Shown: piece by piece, positions 13,158 to 54,117 of the stretch
Position numbering within the stretch: the stretch's first letter is position 1
Layout: each line of letters starts with the position of its first letter
From: Microbacterium soli
Lineage (GTDB): Bacteria > Actinomycetota > Actinomycetes > Actinomycetales > Microbacteriaceae
Assembly: GCF_039539005.1 (NCBI RefSeq)
Contig: NZ_BAABCP010000002.1
Span: forward strand, 310,001 to 374,000
DNA: 64,000 bases
Direction: 5' to 3'
Program-made: the position numbers and the translations under genes
The notes under the pieces: model-generated
Database searches by the model: none
Seen by the model: the letters and a program-made list of their open reading frames with translations, nothing else
Told to the model about the DNA's origin: nothing

Positions 13158-13177
13158 CGGCGCGCTCGGAGCGGCGG

Positions 13178-13215
13178 TGGGCCCTGCCGGGTTCGAACCG
13201 ACGACATCCACGGTG
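13178..13215 (-). pseudogene. 3' half of host tRNA-Val(UAC), separated by the prophage
   Basis: Read on the minus strand this is the 3' side of the anticodon arm (CACCG TGG), variable loop, complete T arm (GTCGG TTCGAAC CCGGC), the acceptor strand AGGGCCC and discriminator A. Joined to 51192-51226 it gives a complete 73-nt tRNA-Val with anticodon UAC. Its acceptor strand pairs with the far-away 5' strand (GGGCCTT), with one G-U pair. No promoter or 5' half is present here, so no functional tRNA can be made. Confidence 0.92.
13211..13215. other. attL core (CGGTG)
   Basis: The five bases shared with attR. Host tRNA sequence lies to the left and phage sequence to the right. Only five bases are identical, far fewer than the 20-50 usual for phages that restore the tRNA they enter. 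A GTGAAG/CTTCAC inverted repeat (13213-13232) overlaps the phage side and may be an integrase core-binding site. Confidence 0.85.
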
Positions 13216-13290
13216 AAGTCCGGGCGCTTCACGAGCCCCATCGTATCTCTCAGTGAGGCCCGCCAGCGTCGGACCGGAAAGGCCGCATAA
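13216..13290 (+). other. Detached 3' end of the repressor gene (viral-form tail)
   Basis: In the circular phage this stretch directly follows the repressor codon GTG that ends in the core. It continues the same frame for 24 codons, starting KSGRF and ending RRTGKAA, then TAA (13288-13290). The stop overlaps the ATG of the next gene (TAATG). In the prophage it has no start codon and is silent as a coding sequence. The open frame, its length and the tidy stop/start overlap argue that it is a real part of the phage repressor gene. Confidence 0.85.
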
Positions 13291-13493
13291 TGCCCACCAT
13301 CGACACGACCAAGGTGCTCAACGAGAGGATCGCCTACTGGGTCATGAGAGGCCGCATCGACATCGCGCGCGAGTTCGCTACCGAGCTTGCGAAGGACCGC
13401 GACAACAGGCCGACGCTCGCGGAGTCCGAAGCGGCCACCGAAGCCGTGCTCGCTCACCGCCATTTAGCGCATGCCGCGCTCGCCGCCGCGTGA
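13290..13493 (+). CDS. Small phage protein between repressor and integrase
   Basis: A 67-residue predicted helical protein, beginning MPTIDTTKVLNERIAYWVMRG and ending AHAALAAA. The family is not recognised. The ALAA-like C-terminus resembles ssrA degradation tags read by ClpXP, so the protein may be short-lived. In the phage genome its start overlaps the viral repressor stop, placing it in one operon with the repressor and integrase. Possible roles are a recombination directionality factor or a regulator of the lysis/lysogeny choice, by position only. Confidence 0.75.
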   Translation: MPTIDTTKVLNERIAYWVMRGRIDIAREFATELAKDRDNRPTLAESEAATEAVLAHRHLAHAALAAA

Positions 13494-13623: not shown

Positions 13624-14487
13624 ATGCACAGTAATGACGATTTGCTGACCCTTTTCACCGAGTACCAGCGGTCGCAGGACTTGTCCGAGAACACGATCCG
13701 GAACCGCCGGTCAGTGTTGACCAGCCTCGCGAAGACTCTCCCGTCCACGCTTCATGAAGCAGACGTGTTCTCACTGCGCCGCTTCATGGGACAGGAGGGG
13801 ATCTCGAAAGCCACGAAGCGAACCTACCGGGTCGCGATCCGTGCCTTCTACCGCTTCCTGCAAGAGGAGGGCCTGCGGGATGACGACCCGTCCACGCGGC
13901 TGCCGATGATCCAGGTGCCGCGCGGTGAGGCTCGCCCCTTCACCCCCGACCAGGTGGATGCGATGCTCACGAGCGGCGCCTACAAGCGCACGCGGGCGAT
14001 GATCCTCCTCGGTTACCGTCAAGGGTTCCGCGTGTCACAGATCGCACGCGTCCACGGCGACGACCTCGACCTGCTCTCGATGACGATCGTCACGATCGGG
14101 AAGGGCAGGAAGGAACGCCGGCTGCCGCTCCATCCGGTGATCGCGGAACTGTCCGCATCGATGCCCCCACACTCGTGGTGGTTCCCCGCGAGGAAGGACC
14201 CGACCAGGCACATGCAGCCGTCTTCGGTGACGGGCCTGATCACGAAGGCGAAGCTGCGTGCCGGGATCACCGACCCGCACCTGACACCGCACTCCCTACG
14301 GCACAGTTTCGGGACCGAGCTTGTCGAGCACGGCGTCGACATCAGGGTCGTGCAGGAGCTGATGACGCACGAGGATCTTTCCACCACGCAGATCTACACG
14401 CGCGTGTCGGACCGGATGAAGACCGCCGGGATCATCGCCCTACCGTCGCGGCCTATCCCTCAGCATTCGGGTCGCCGGGCGGCGTAG
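13624..14487 (+). CDS. int: Tyrosine-recombinase integrase
   Basis: A 287-residue site-specific recombinase that inserts and excises the prophage. The N-terminal SAM-like core-binding domain spans residues ~5-90. All catalytic residues are visible: Arg136 (GFRVSQ), Lys160 (GKGRKERRLPL), His223 and Arg226 (HSLRHSFG), His249 (MTHEDLS) and the nucleophile Tyr258 (TTQIYTRV). The ATG at 13624 follows a TTGGAG box. It ends in GRRAA, reminiscent of an ssrA-like tail. It acts at the attP inside the repressor gene and at the tRNA-Val anticodon arm. The phage tRNA-Val starts 13 nt after its stop. Confidence 0.95.
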   Translation: MHSNDDLLTLFTEYQRSQDLSENTIRNRRSVLTSLAKTLPSTLHEADVFSLRRFMGQEGISKATKRTYRVAIRAFYRFLQEEGLRDDDPSTRLPMIQVPRGEARPFTPDQVDAMLTSGAYKRTRAMILLGYRQGFRVSQIARVHGDDLDLLSMTIVTIGKGRKERRLPLHPVIAELSASMPPHSWWFPARKDPTRHMQPSSVTGLITKAKLRAGITDPHLTPHSLRHSFGTELVEHGVDIRVVQELMTHEDLSTTQIYTRVSDRMKTAGIIALPSRPIPQHSGRRAA

Positions 14488-14500: not shown

Positions 14501-14572
14501 GGCCGGTTGGCGCAGCGGTAGCGCAGCTCCTTTACACGGAGAAGGTCACCGGTTCGATCCCGGTACCGGCCA
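14501..14572 (+). tRNA. Phage-encoded tRNA-Val(UAC)
   Basis: A complete 72-nt cloverleaf. Acceptor GGCCGGT/ACCGGCC is perfect, the D stem is GCGC/GCGC, the anticodon stem CTCC/GGAG carries the loop TTTACAC with anticodon TAC (14533-14535), the T arm is ACCGG TTCGATC CCGGT, and the discriminator is A. The key valine identity bases A35, C36 and A73 are present; CCA is not encoded. It reads the same codon as the host gene destroyed by integration but differs from it in most stems, so it is not a copy left by integration. It probably supplies the missing tRNA in the lysogen. Confidence 0.95.
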
Positions 14573-14593
14573 CAGGATCGCCTACAACGCACG

Positions 14594-14633
14594 AAAACCC
14601 CCACCACGCCTCATTGGGCATGGTGGGGGTTTT
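14594..14633. terminator. Bidirectional terminator between integrase/tRNA and the late operon
   Basis: A perfect 13-bp inverted repeat, AAAACCCCCACCA (14594-14606) and TGGTGGGGGTTTT (14621-14633), with a U-rich tail in both directions. It ends the plus-strand int-tRNA transcript and the long minus-strand late transcript. Confidence 0.9.
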
Positions 14634-50508: not shown

Positions 50509-50736
50509 TCACGATGCAGCCTCGCTGTGCTCCGTGTGCTTCGCCGCTTCACGGAGTCGCTTCGAGATGATCGCGACGATGTCTGCTTCACGGAAGACAT
50601 ACGCGCCCCGCTGGCCGGGCATCTTCTGGGCCGGGTACTCGCCGCGCTCGGCCTTCCGCTGCACAGTGCGCGGATGCTCGATGAGCAGACTGGCGGCCTG
50701 ATTCGTAGAAATCAGCTTCTGTCGGTTTTTCGGCAT
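50509..50736 (-). CDS. Excisionase/Cro-position helix-turn-helix protein
   Basis: A 75-residue DNA-binding protein: STNQAASLLIEHPRTVQRKAERGEYPAQKMPGQRGAYVFREADIVAIISKRL is the HTH_17 excisionase-type winged helix. It is divergent from the repressor, where phages place Cro or Xis, so it probably controls excision and early transcription. The mRNA appears leaderless (-10 TAGTCT six nt upstream). Confidence 0.82.
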   Translation of the reverse strand: MPKNRQKLISTNQAASLLIEHPRTVQRKAERGEYPAQKMPGQRGAYVFREADIVAIISKRLREAAKHTEHSEAAS

Positions 50737-50826: not shown

Positions 50827-50860
50827 TTGCGGTATCTCCAAAGTTGTCGTAGCATCGACA
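50827..50860 (+). promoter_or_regulatory. Repressor promoter with operator O2 over its -10
   Basis: -35 TTGCGG (50827-50832), 17-bp spacer, -10 TAGCAT (50850-50855). The -10 is exactly the six-base centre of TGTCG-TAGCAT-CGACA (50845-50860). Repressor binding here would block its own promoter, predicting negative autoregulation. Confidence 0.65.
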
Positions 50861-50900
50861 CATGTCGACCTAGGGAGGTCGCCGACCGGCAGGGGGAATC

Positions 50901-51194
50901 ATGAGCAAGCACGCAATCGAACAGACGCCCGCGTACGAGAACCCGTTTCACTCGGGAGACCGCATCCGCAAGGCGCGCGAGCACATCGGTCAGGACCGGC
51001 AGACGTTCGCGGCGACGGTTGGACTGCACCGCGACACCCTGGCTAAGTACGAAGACGGCGGCAAGGCGAAGCGGTCTGCGCTGATCAGCATCGCGTGGGC
51101 GACGGGGACGCGTCTTGAGTGGCTCGAAGACGGCGTACTGCCCTGGCTGGCGACGGACGCACCCGGGCCTGAAGTGCCTACACCAGCGGTGTAA
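50901..51194 (+). CDS. Immunity repressor, prophage (truncated) form
   Basis: A 97-residue XRE-type repressor. The helix-turn-helix region is GDRIRKAREHIGQDRQTFAATVGLHRDTLAKYEDGGKAKRSAL (residues ~19-61). AGGGGG precedes the ATG. The last phage codons, GCG GTG, hold the attachment core, and the stop TAA (51192-51194) is host tRNA sequence. In the phage genome the frame continues for 24 more codons (13216-13287). By analogy with BPs-like mycobacteriophages the short form would be the stable, active repressor, and the long form unstable or inactive. It probably binds the TGTCG-N6-CGACA sites. Confidence 0.9.
   Translation: MSKHAIEQTPAYENPFHSGDRIRKAREHIGQDRQTFAATVGLHRDTLAKYEDGGKAKRSALISIAWATGTRLEWLEDGVLPWLATDAPGPEVPTPAV
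51187..51191. other. attR core (CGGTG)
   Basis: The second copy of the five-base core. Phage sequence (repressor 3' end) lies to the left; host tRNA-Val 5' half lies to the right. Exchange with attL restores both the host tRNA and the full-length phage repressor gene. Confidence 0.85.
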
Positions 51195-51226
51195 ACGTGG
51201 CGCTCTACCAGCTGAGCTAAAGGCCC
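51187..51226 (-). pseudogene. 5' half of host tRNA-Val(UAC), interrupted by the prophage
   Basis: On the minus strand it gives the acceptor strand GGGCCTT, a complete D arm (GCTC AGCTGGTA GAGC), and the 5' anticodon stem and loop (CCACG TTTACAC), then runs into phage DNA. The 3' half is 38 kb away at 13178-13215. Its promoter is intact: a TAGACT box (51237-51242, minus strand) lies about 10 nt upstream. The transcript would therefore be read antisense into the repressor gene and cannot fold as a tRNA. Confidence 0.92.
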
Positions 51227-51390: not shown

Positions 51391-54117
51391 GTGACTGTTC
51401 ACGATCAGGATCCGTACTCCCAGGGCCCGCTCGACAGCGATCCGGAGGAGACCGGCGAGTGGCAGCAGTCGCTCGACGAGCTCGTCGATGCGAAGGGCCA
51501 CGGCCGCGGGCGAGAGATCATGCTCAGCCTGCTCAAGCGCTCGAAGGATCTGCACCTCGGCGTCCCGATGGTCCCGACCACCGACTACATCAACACGATC
51601 GCCCCCGAGAACGAACCCGAGTTCGGCGGCGACGAGGAGATCGAGCGCCGCTACCGGCACTGGATCCGATGGAACGCCGCCATCACCGTGCACCGCGCGC
51701 AGCGCCCCGGCATCGGCGTCGGCGGGCACATCTCCACCTACGCCGGCGCGGCCTCGCTGTACGAGGTCGGCTTCAACCACTTCTTCCGCGGCCAGGACGC
51801 CCCCGGCGGCGGCGACCAGATCTTCATCCAGGGCCACGCCTCCCCGGGCATCTACGCCCGCTCCTTCCTCGAGGGCCGGCTGACCGAGGCCGACATGGAC
51901 GGATTCCGTCAGGAGAAGTCCCACCTCGGGCATGCTCTTCCGTCGTACCCGCACCCGCGCTCGATGCCGGACTACTGGCAGTTCCCGACCGTGTCGATGG
52001 GCATCGGCCCGATCAACGCGATCTATCAGGCCCAGGCCAACAAGTACCTCGCCAACCGCGGCATCAAGGACACCGGTGACCAGCACGTCTGGGCCTTCCT
52101 CGGCGACGGCGAGATGGACGAGGTCGAGAGCCGTGGTCAGCTGCAGGTGGCCGCCAACGAGGGTCTGGACAACCTGACCTTCGTCATCAACTGCAACCTG
52201 CAGCGCCTGGACGGCCCGGTCCGCGGCAACGGCAAGATCATCCAGGAGCTGGAGTCGTTCTTCCGCGGCGCGGGCTGGAACGTCATCAAGGTGATCTGGG
52301 GCCGTGAGTGGGACGACCTGCTCGCCCGCGACACCGAGGGCGCGCTGCTGAACATCATGAACACCACCCCCGACGGGGACTACCAGACGTACAAGGCCGA
52401 GTCCGGCGCGTACATCCGCGAGCACTTCTTCGGCAAGGACGAGCGCGCCGCCGCCCTCGTCAAGGACTACACCGACGAGCAGATCTGGCAGCTGCGGCGT
52501 GGCGGTCATGACTACCGCAAGGTGTACGCCGCATACAAGGCCGCATTGGAGCACAAGGGCCAGCCCACCGTCATCCTCGCCAAGACCGTCAAGGGCTATG
52601 GCCTGGGTCCGCACTTCGAGGGACGCAACGCGACCCATCAGATGAAGAAGATGACGCTGGACAACCTCAAGACGTTCCGTGACACCATGCAGATCCCCAT
52701 CACGGACGCGCAGCTCGAGGCCGACCCCTACCTGCCGCCGTACTACCACCCCGGCGAGAACGATGAGACCATCCAGTACATGCTGGAGCGCCGCCGGGCC
52801 CTGGGCGGCTTCATCCCGGAGCGCCGGACCGCGCACACCTCGATCACCCTGCCCGAGGATTCCGCCTACGCCCTGGCGAAGAAGGGGTCCGGCACGCAGG
52901 AGATCGCCACGACCATGGCGTTCGTGCGGCTGCTGAAGGATCTGCTGCGCTCCAAGGACTTCGGCAACCGCATCGTGCCGATCATCCCCGACGAGGCGCG
53001 CACCTTCGGCATCGACGCGTACTTCCCCACCGCGAAGATCTACAACCCGAACGGTCAGCATTACACCTCCGTCGATCGCGAGCTGCTTCTGGCGTACAAG
53101 GAGAGCCCGCAGGGCCAGATCGTGCACGTCGGCATCAACGAGGCCGGTGCCGTGGCCGCGTTCACCGCCGCGGCGACCTCGTACTCCACGCAGGGCGAGC
53201 CCCTCATCCCGATCTACATCTTCTACTCGATGTTCGGCTACCAGCGCACGGGCGATGCACTGTGGGCGGCGGGCGACCAGATGTCCCGCGGCTTCGTGAT
53301 CGGAGCGACGGCCGGGCGCACCACGCTGACCGGCGAGGGCCTGCAGCACGCCGACGGCCACTCCCCGCTGCTGGCGTCCACCAACCCCGGCACCGTCGCC
53401 TACGACCCCGCGTACGGGTACGAGATCGCACACATCGTGCGCTCGGGTCTGGAGCGGATGTACGGCGGTCAGCATCCGGACCCGAACGTCATGTACTACA
53501 TCACGGTGTACAACGAGCCTCTGGTCCAGCCGGCCGAGCCCGAGGACGTCGACGTGGACGGCATCGTCCGCGGCCTGCACCGCATCTCGGCGGGCACCGG
53601 CGAAGGCCCCAAGGCCCAGCTGTTCGCCTCCGGCGTCGGCGTTCCCTGGGCTCTGGAGGCCCAGGCGCTGCTGCGCAAGGACTGGGGCGTGAACGCCGAC
53701 GTGTGGTCGGTCACCTCCTGGGGCGAGCTGCGCCACGACGGACTCGCGGCCGACGAGCACAACTTCCTGCACCCGGAGGAGGAGCCGCGCACGGCCTACC
53801 TGACGCAGAAGCTGCAGGGCGCCGAGGGTCCGGTCATCGCGGTCAGCGACTTCATGCGCGCCGTGCAGGACCAGATCCGTCCCTGGGTGCCGAACCCGTA
53901 CTACACGCTGGGCGCGGACGGTTTCGGATTCTCCGACACGCGTGCTGCCGCACGTCGCTTCTTCAAGATCGACGGCCCGTCCATGGCTGTCCGCACCCTG
54001 CAGGCGCTGGCCGATCAGGGCGAGGTCGATCGCTCCTCGGTCGCCGAGGCCATCCGCAAGTACTCGCTGCACGATGTGAACGCGGGTGCCAGCGGGAACG
54101 CGGGTGGTGAGAGCTGA
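51391..54117 (+). CDS. aceE: Pyruvate dehydrogenase E1 component, homodimeric type
   Basis: A 908-residue thiamine diphosphate enzyme that decarboxylates pyruvate and passes the acetyl group to E2 for acetyl-CoA. The TPP-binding motif is [38 protein letters not shown]. The usual E1 blocks follow ([56 protein letters not shown]). Length matches AceE. The start is GTG at 51391, with GAAAGG upstream. It lies just before the fatty-acid regulator and fab genes. Confidence 0.97.

Follow-up and report, generated by a model that had tools for sequence, protein, structure and literature searches.

The repressor gene of a prophage in Microbacterium soli ends inside a host tRNA gene, which raises the question of what one insertion does to the repressor on one side and to the tRNA on the other. 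The window (the whole stretch of 64,000 nucleotides that was analysed) holds both junctions of this prophage, and our answer, which we consider very probable, is that insertion supplies the repressor frame with a stop codon from the host tRNA-Val(UAC) anticodon loop and breaks that tRNA, with the predicted consequences that a degradation tag is removed from the repressor and that the cell comes to depend on a tRNA-Val brought by the prophage. In what follows G000 is the window's own genome, other G numbers are genomes of relatives, L numbers are loci or contigs and P numbers are protein homologues. The junctions are made up of these features:

13176..13215, minus strand: attL, the 3' half of the disrupted host tRNA-Val(TAC), recognised by ARAGORN on the joined flanks
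13211..13215: attL copy of the core CGGTG, the 5 bp common to both junctions, with no rightward extension
51187..51191: attR copy of the core CGGTG, from the junction comparison
51192..51226, minus strand: attR, the 5' half of the disrupted host tRNA-Val(TAC), from the joined flanks, matching the tRNA-Val 5' half near the same host gene in relatives
51391..54117, plus strand: aceE-type host gene adjoining attB, which we take to be pyruvate dehydrogenase E1

Joining both host flanks restores an intact tRNA-Val(tac) of 75 bases on the minus strand, and ARAGORN finds no tRNA at attL or attR of the window prophage, where none of the genome's 47 tRNAs matches either. The 5' half of the host tRNA-Val(TAC) occurs once, at attR, and comparison of attL with attR leaves CGGTG as the only common core. 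The host tRNA is cut by the insertion and is rebuilt at neither junction. The attB overlaps the host tRNA gene, and the integrase is of the tyrosine type. As far as the scanned ORFs go the prophage looks complete, the nine large ORFs scanned between the junctions including terminase, portal, major head protein, tape measure, replication and RecT-like proteins. That the prophage ends were mis-joined during assembly and the tRNA is really intact seems to us barely credible: draft assemblies can fail at att sites, and attR of one relative (G065) reads N, but another genome (G297) has the same 5-bp junctions adjoining the same host gene, and three further prophages (G254, G094 and G258) repeat the design at other tRNAs.

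The repressor is divided between the two ends of the prophage in the following way:

50901..51194, plus strand: prophage form of the repressor, 97 aa, with a stop TAA from the host tRNA anticodon loop (phrog_2328 transcriptional repressor, 1.1e-13)
13216..13290, plus strand: phage-side continuation of the repressor frame, 24 codons and TAA, with similar in-frame tails in 14 other prophages at tRNA-Val

The original prediction held that the repressor frame crosses the core to a TAA belonging to the host tRNA, and that phage DNA beyond the core keeps this frame open for 24 codons, up to a TAA that overlaps the ATG of the following gene. Both points were borne out, the first by the ORF, which ends GTG TAA at 51189-51194 with its TAA (51192-51194) inside the host tRNA-Val anticodon loop on the joined flanks, and the second by translation, in which 13216-13287 reads KSGRFTSPIVSLSEARQRRTGKAA and is followed by TAA at 13288-13290, overlapping an ATG at 13290-13292 (TAATG). 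The two predicted forms of 121 and 97 residues likewise agree with the count (97 + 24 = 121), and both forms occur in homologues. The attP of the window phage, as reconstructed from attL and attR, would thus lie within the repressor frame, and the phage would encode a putative long form of 121 residues; the prophage form is the shorter at the C-terminus, with its stop supplied at the host junction. In the window repressor the Pfam HTH hits fall below the cut-off, while HTH domains above the curated cut-off are present in the repressors of G297 and G002 (BetR), and HTH in the remaining repressors was judged by eye.

A protein search with the repressor covered 295 genomes of the genus and gave no homologue at E<=1e-8 in the 294 besides its own, and relatives were therefore sought through the integrase and the tRNA site. 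Related integrases turned up in 15 genomes out of 366 searched in the genus (E<=1e-80) and in 6 out of 398 from a family sample (E<=1e-70), both counts including the window's own. Fifteen prophages from three genera have attL in tRNA-Val by its 3' half, and in all 15 attL an in-frame tail of 17-38 codons with a common pattern follows CGGTG (e.g. KSGRFTSPIVSLSEARQRRTGKAA, KSQHFERPIVSLADERERRLKQTAVTA and ESQRLAPITDIFTARAS). These tails end in -AS (9), -VA (3), -AA, -TA or -GL (1 each), A or S being the last residue in 14/15; that of the window ends in -KAA. An open frame is by itself weak evidence in this GC-rich DNA, since beyond the core the repressor frame averages 22 codons in the 15 prophages, fewer than the 48 and 45 of the other two frames (cut at 66). 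However, the similar peptide in every attL, the overlap of its stop with a start codon in 13/15, the codon-position differences in the tails (0.467/0.400/0.592 over the 15 prophages) and the occurrence of both forms in homologues argue that the frame is more than chance.

Homologues point the same way. Searching 5.8 billion proteins turned up 36 repressor homologues besides the window's own. Two of these, P0027 (96 aa) and P0030 (112 aa), are identical over residues 1-96, after which P0030 continues for 16 more, KSGRLAEILPFERKSA. The tRNA-encoded segment, searched as a motif of our own, is present in 13/36 homologues, of which 4 end there and 9 continue for 14-21 residues, so that relatives appear to possess both repressor forms. 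P0030 has no Pfam domain at 0.01, and its AlphaFold model (mean pLDDT 64.8) has helices between residues 17 and 76 and falls below 50 at residues 80-97; Foldseek with this model returned nothing at E<=0.001, the best match being 434 Cro at 9.7e-3. A further homologue, P0012, ends in VDPAEIESSTESV, which resembles a decayed tRNA-encoded segment and may be an intermediate between long-core and short-core types. Viral contigs yielded no relative with the window integrase as single query, while an alignment of 12 integrases led to 285 contigs with one; the best 80 of 285 were taken and 38 of these examined. In three of the 38 (L198, L213 and L215) a repressor-like frame, with HTH judged by eye, runs uncut through a tRNA-type segment into a tail, with the core 124-145 bp before the integrase match (145 bp before the integrase in L198). 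A pattern of integrase end plus tRNA-Val matched none of the viral contigs.

What the tail does can be approached through mycobacteriophage BPs, in which the 136-residue repressor is degraded, the substitution A135E stabilises it and a 103-residue form represses (PMC4557955). The BPs repressor ends in -AS, as implied by a printed reverse cloning primer (PMC4557955), and this is the ending of 9/15 tails; by analogy with the behaviour of BPs we infer that the tail serves as a degradation tag, with the short form as the active repressor. Counting against this explanation, -KAA is no full ssrA tag, and one relative's tail ends in -GL. The competing view, in which the tail is read-through with no effect and the two forms are equivalent, we regard as improbable. 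It would fit with a repressor frame that is not longer than the other two after the core, with the low confidence of the P0030 model over most of residues 80-112, as expected of a floppy end, and with the finding that long and short BPs forms bind DNA alike (PMC4557955), but it sits poorly with the inactivation of the BPs long form through its C-terminal tag (PMC4557955), with protein-level conservation and stop/start overlaps across prophages of three genera, and with in-frame tails that appear again at tRNA-Lys and tRNA-Arg.

The remaining features at the two ends concern the integrase and its neighbours, among them a tRNA gene:

13290..13493, plus strand: 67-aa ORF between repressor tail and integrase, without a family match
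13624..14487, plus strand: tyrosine integrase, 287 aa, C-terminus ...SGRRAA (PF00589, 6.9e-33)
14501..14573, plus strand: prophage tRNA-Val(TAC), just after the integrase, the only intact one in the assembly
14609..14628, plus strand: terminator-like hairpin after the prophage tRNA, weak, 1 found vs 0.9 expected in shuffles
50509..50736, minus strand: divergent HTH_17 or excisionase-like protein, 75 aa, in the cro/xis position
50856..50867: palindrome CGACACATGTCG, one base from the BPs operator, candidate operator, the sole exact match in the window

The integrase start at 13624 was picked by likeness to relatives (the ORF opens at 13471), and given this start the SAM-like domain begins at about residue 11, leaving no room for an arm-binding domain. 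The protein is of the Brujita kind, about 38% identical, and its C-terminal -AA is found in 15/15 prophages at tRNA-Val and in 0/6 relatives without a tRNA-Val attL within the 3.8-11 kb scanned (G207, G307, G437, G505, G221 and G274). The palindrome is a candidate operator only, since the looser BPs-type motif (<=2 mismatches) is rarer in the window than in shuffles (14 vs 22.7). Promoter scans recognised no promoter at either prophage end.

In a genome rated 99.97% complete, the prophage copy carries the sole TAC anticodon among the 47 tRNAs, the other valine tRNAs being CAC and GAC. It is 79.5% identical to the host Val-GAC, 77.0% to Val-CAC and 69.3% to the broken Val-TAC, and its anticodon stem differs from attB; from this stem and the low likeness to the host Val-TAC, it is probably no target of its own integrase. 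Among 15 genomes searched, tRNAs like it (>=88% identity) were found only in G000, G297 and G065. By standard decoding, a TAC anticodon is the only reader of GUA among the anticodons found in this genome, and we consider that tRNA-Val(TAC) would be essential to the cell and that the prophage copy likely replaces the broken host one. GUA is rare, however, at 5/500 Val codons in sampled long ORFs and 0/48 in the aceE-type gene, and for this reason the loss of the host tRNA might be tolerated.

Combining these observations, we propose that in the free phage the frame would run 24 codons further, that the resulting repressor of 121 residues would probably be targeted for proteolysis by its -KAA end, and that the integrase would recombine the 5-bp attP core with the tRNA-Val(TAC) anticodon loop, giving the products seen at both junctions. 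The 97-residue repressor present after insertion is predicted to be stable and active, while the host tRNA lies cut and the prophage tRNA-Val, as the only intact copy assembled, would probably substitute for it. A single crossover would in this way set immunity and lock the prophage in, and immunity and loss of the host tRNA would be inseparable, as the host anticodon loop supplies both the cut and the stop codon.

Prophages of related integrases differ in how much of the tRNA they carry. At tRNA-Val attR could be read in 11 of the 15 prophages, two of them short-core and nine long-core (G208, G002, G204, G218, G314, G100 and G300 in the genus, G553 and G472 in other genera; in G100 the two junctions are on different contigs). 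The long-core repressors translate all of the tRNA 3' half, as VGPAGIEPTTSTV or something close to it, before ending at the same TAA; their core is 39-40 bp in 8/9 (in G300 it is 13 bp to the first mismatch), and tRNA-Val is intact at attR in all nine. Because the repressor is encoded through the tRNA 3' half, the tRNA is rebuilt in these prophages and no phage tRNA stands beside the integrase. G000 and G297 lack the tRNA part, with a 5-bp core and no tRNA at attR, and in both a tRNA-Val(TAC) lies beside the integrase. G065, which is identical to L098 of Microbacterium sp. 69-10 over the integrase region, also has a tRNA-Val(TAC) there; in the integrase tree it makes up a single clade with G000 and G297 (support 100/99).

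The design recurs at other tRNAs, in prophages whose integrases are more distant members from the genus. The prophage of G254 sits in tRNA-Lys(TTT): its core measures 6 bp, its repressor stops at a TAA within the anticodon loop, the tail is 23 residues long with -SA at the end, and a tRNA-Lys(TTT) of its own adjoins the integrase. Two more, G094 (7-bp core, -AAS at the tail end) and G258 (6-bp core, -SIA at the tail end), sit in tRNA-Arg(TCT); the stop in the loop is TAG, and each carries a tRNA-Arg(TCT) of its own next to the integrase. In all three an intact tRNA is obtained from the joined flanks and from neither junction alone. The long-core counterpart at tRNA-Lys is G165, in which the tRNA is rebuilt with the repressor frame reading through it, no second tRNA-Lys was found in 60 kb, and the integrase groups with those of G254 and G232 (100/100).

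Over the 15 prophages with both junctions read, the window's included, core length and phage tRNA go together: all five short-core prophages (5, 5, 6, 7 and 6 bp; Val-TAC twice, Lys-TTT, Arg-TCT twice) have a tRNA of the same anticodon beside the integrase and none at attR, and all ten long-core prophages have an intact tRNA at attR and none of that kind beside the integrase (ARAGORN scans covered 11 kb around the integrase in seven, about 3.8 kb in two and 60 kb in one). The rows are related, and the association therefore amounts not to 15 independent tests but to two contrasts between related prophages, at Val and at Lys. Outside it stand G065, with its N at attR, G232, whose attR was not found in 38 kb, G772, G742 and G724, as well as G700, which lies at another tRNA and in which the Val pattern finds no attR; the distant integrases of G235, G197, G021 and G273 were used in the tree only. 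This association bears on a further alternative, namely plain integration-dependent immunity with a prophage tRNA-Val that is used in lytic translation and agrees with the broken host tRNA by coincidence. Many phages carry tRNAs with proposed roles in lytic growth (PMC10865867), and with GUA as rare as in the host sample the host might manage without tRNA-Val(TAC); but coincidence would have to produce the anticodon of the broken tRNA in 5/5 short-core prophages and in 0/10 long-core ones, and in the window it would have to fall on the one anticodon that reads GUA, and we think it unlikely.

In one tree the short-core clade falls together with six long-core prophages and a further integrase (98/96) while G300 branches off outside them, which suggests that the long core may be ancestral. 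A second tree with other rows does not separate the three tRNA-Val groups and fits two changes, one origin also being possible; we therefore claim neither a direction nor a number of origins.

Returning to our preferred reading, in which one crossover would both truncate the repressor and break the host tRNA, we think that the prophages at Val, Lys and Arg sites probably represent a recurrent class of temperate phages that merges two systems, integration-dependent immunity and tRNA-dependent lysogeny. A single crossover within an anticodon loop would write the stop that activates the repressor and destroy an essential host tRNA that only the phage replaces; each case has a short core and a phage tRNA of the same anticodon, and long-core sisters exist at Val and Lys. 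Mycobacteriophages are the known setting of integration-dependent immunity, which has also been reported or predicted in phages of Gordonia, Bifidobacterium and M. abscessus (PMC8092301) and has been claimed for a Streptomyces phage with a serine integrase; other literature drawn on in part comprises PMC5559632, PMC5513430, PMC13313380, PMC12160441, PMC9030533, PMC12699233, PMC6109161, PMC9862828, PMC12429752 and PMC12243558. As in BPs, Brujita and M. abscessus, attP would lie in the repressor frame with a tyrosine integrase downstream and -AA ends, the repressor being shortened by 24 residues here, by 33 in BPs and by 20-35 in M. abscessus (PMC4557955, PMC8092301). The lack of room for an arm-binding domain, which is shared with Brujita, is in line with a review stating that such systems need no arm-type sites (PMC9262239). 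Unlike the BPs and Brujita layout, a small ORF separates the repressor tail from the integrase. The same review has attB in a tRNA gene in all integration-dependent immunity phages and a 35-bp core that must hold the tRNA 3' end, keeping the tRNA functional in the lysogen (PMC9262239), and cores at prophage tRNA sites of M. abscessus are typically 25-76 bp (PMC8092301). In contrast, the window prophage has a 5-bp core, leaves the host tRNA destroyed and supplies a tRNA itself, and the five short-core prophages break the review's rule that the core keeps the tRNA working.

It is tRNA-dependent lysogeny, described in 2024 with short-core cases of 8-17 bp at lysine, isoleucine and leucine tRNAs among others (PMC10865867), that would account for the loss and replacement of the tRNA. 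For Fionnbharth, integration plasmids lacking the phage tRNA are reported to give no transformants unless that tRNA is provided (PMC10865867). Similar to Fionnbharth, LeBron and Gaia, attB is in a host tRNA, the core is short and no functional tRNA is present at the junctions, and the phage tRNA is of the same isotype and not a close copy of the host's (69.3% here) (PMC10865867). The cores are shorter in our prophages (5-7 bp), Val and Arg tRNAs, both found here, are absent from Table 2 of that paper, and the Fionnbharth-type integrases have the arm-binding domain for which the window integrase has no room (PMC10865867). Moreover, the consulted parts of that paper describe no attP inside a repressor and cite integration-dependent immunity as a contrast. 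The nine long-core relatives at tRNA-Val share with the window related integrases, the same site, the same frame and tails of the same kind, and G165, at tRNA-Lys, has a related integrase; these long-core prophages differ in the repressor running through the tRNA 3' half (...VGPAGIEPTTSTV and variants at Val), the rebuilt tRNA and the absence of a phage tRNA beside the integrase.

The original prediction had carried the integration-dependent immunity logic over to a phage of a different host. Of this the layout stands, with attP placed in the repressor frame and a Brujita-kind integrase downstream, the tag and the activity of the short form being suggested by analogy; the host is indeed different, but the layout had already been reported or predicted for other hosts and is not new in itself. 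That reading was incomplete, as it overlooked the new part, namely that the host tRNA is destroyed, that the core measures 5 bp and that the prophage has a tRNA-Val of its own. What is new is the combination of two known kinds. We found no description of both systems in one phage, in literature that took in little of the subscription journals, and none in Microbacterium in literature passages on related terms; a search for both terms together gave PMC10865867, where they stand as a contrast, and one paper naming both solely in its reference list. The induced Microbacterium prophage vB_MoxS-R1 was considered as a precedent and set aside, as in 36,000 of its 42,563 bases the integrase lies at one end with no repressor just before it and the one annotated tRNA (Ala) is far from the integrase.

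Two ties of lysogeny to integration that were described separately would thus meet on one 5-bp crossover, and an immune cell would also come to depend on the prophage tRNA. The relation of tRNA-dependent lysogeny to tRNA-rebuilding systems was called unclear in PMC10865867, and the related short- and long-core prophages at tRNA-Val and tRNA-Lys make it directly testable. With a phage tRNA present, the tRNA 3' half of attP, which also codes for repressor, would be free to change, while the frame and tail stay. As the repressors vary and the end formed by attP, tail and integrase is kept, these prophages offer a natural domain-swap series.

Several smaller observations accompany these results. 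The HTH part seems to have been swapped, as repressors vary widely at the same site with the tail and integrase end kept (L103 11998-12336, L014 1210-1503, L101, L132, L134 and L136-L140). In G207 tandem pairs of integrase relatives (L122 and L126), with C-termini lacking -AA and no tRNA-Val attL, look like multi-recombinase elements rather than phages of this type, and at the empty tRNA-Val site of the same genome (L135) the frame of a hydrolase-like host gene continues without a stop into the tRNA and would reach the same TAA in the anticodon loop, open frames being common here. Two viral contigs have a tRNA-Lys(ttt) directly after a related integrase on the opposite strand (L229 5832-5905 and L230 832-905), and in L229 a repressor-like frame upstream of the integrase ends in a tRNA-like segment. 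Arthrobacter phage Popper, with two integrases, has a complete tRNA-Arg(tct) beside an integrase (L130 4415-4488) and may be a further case of tRNA replacement. Lastly, the promoter side of the cut host tRNA-Val (51192-51226, minus strand) faces the repressor 3' end in the lysogen, and a truncated tRNA transcript could be antisense to the repressor.
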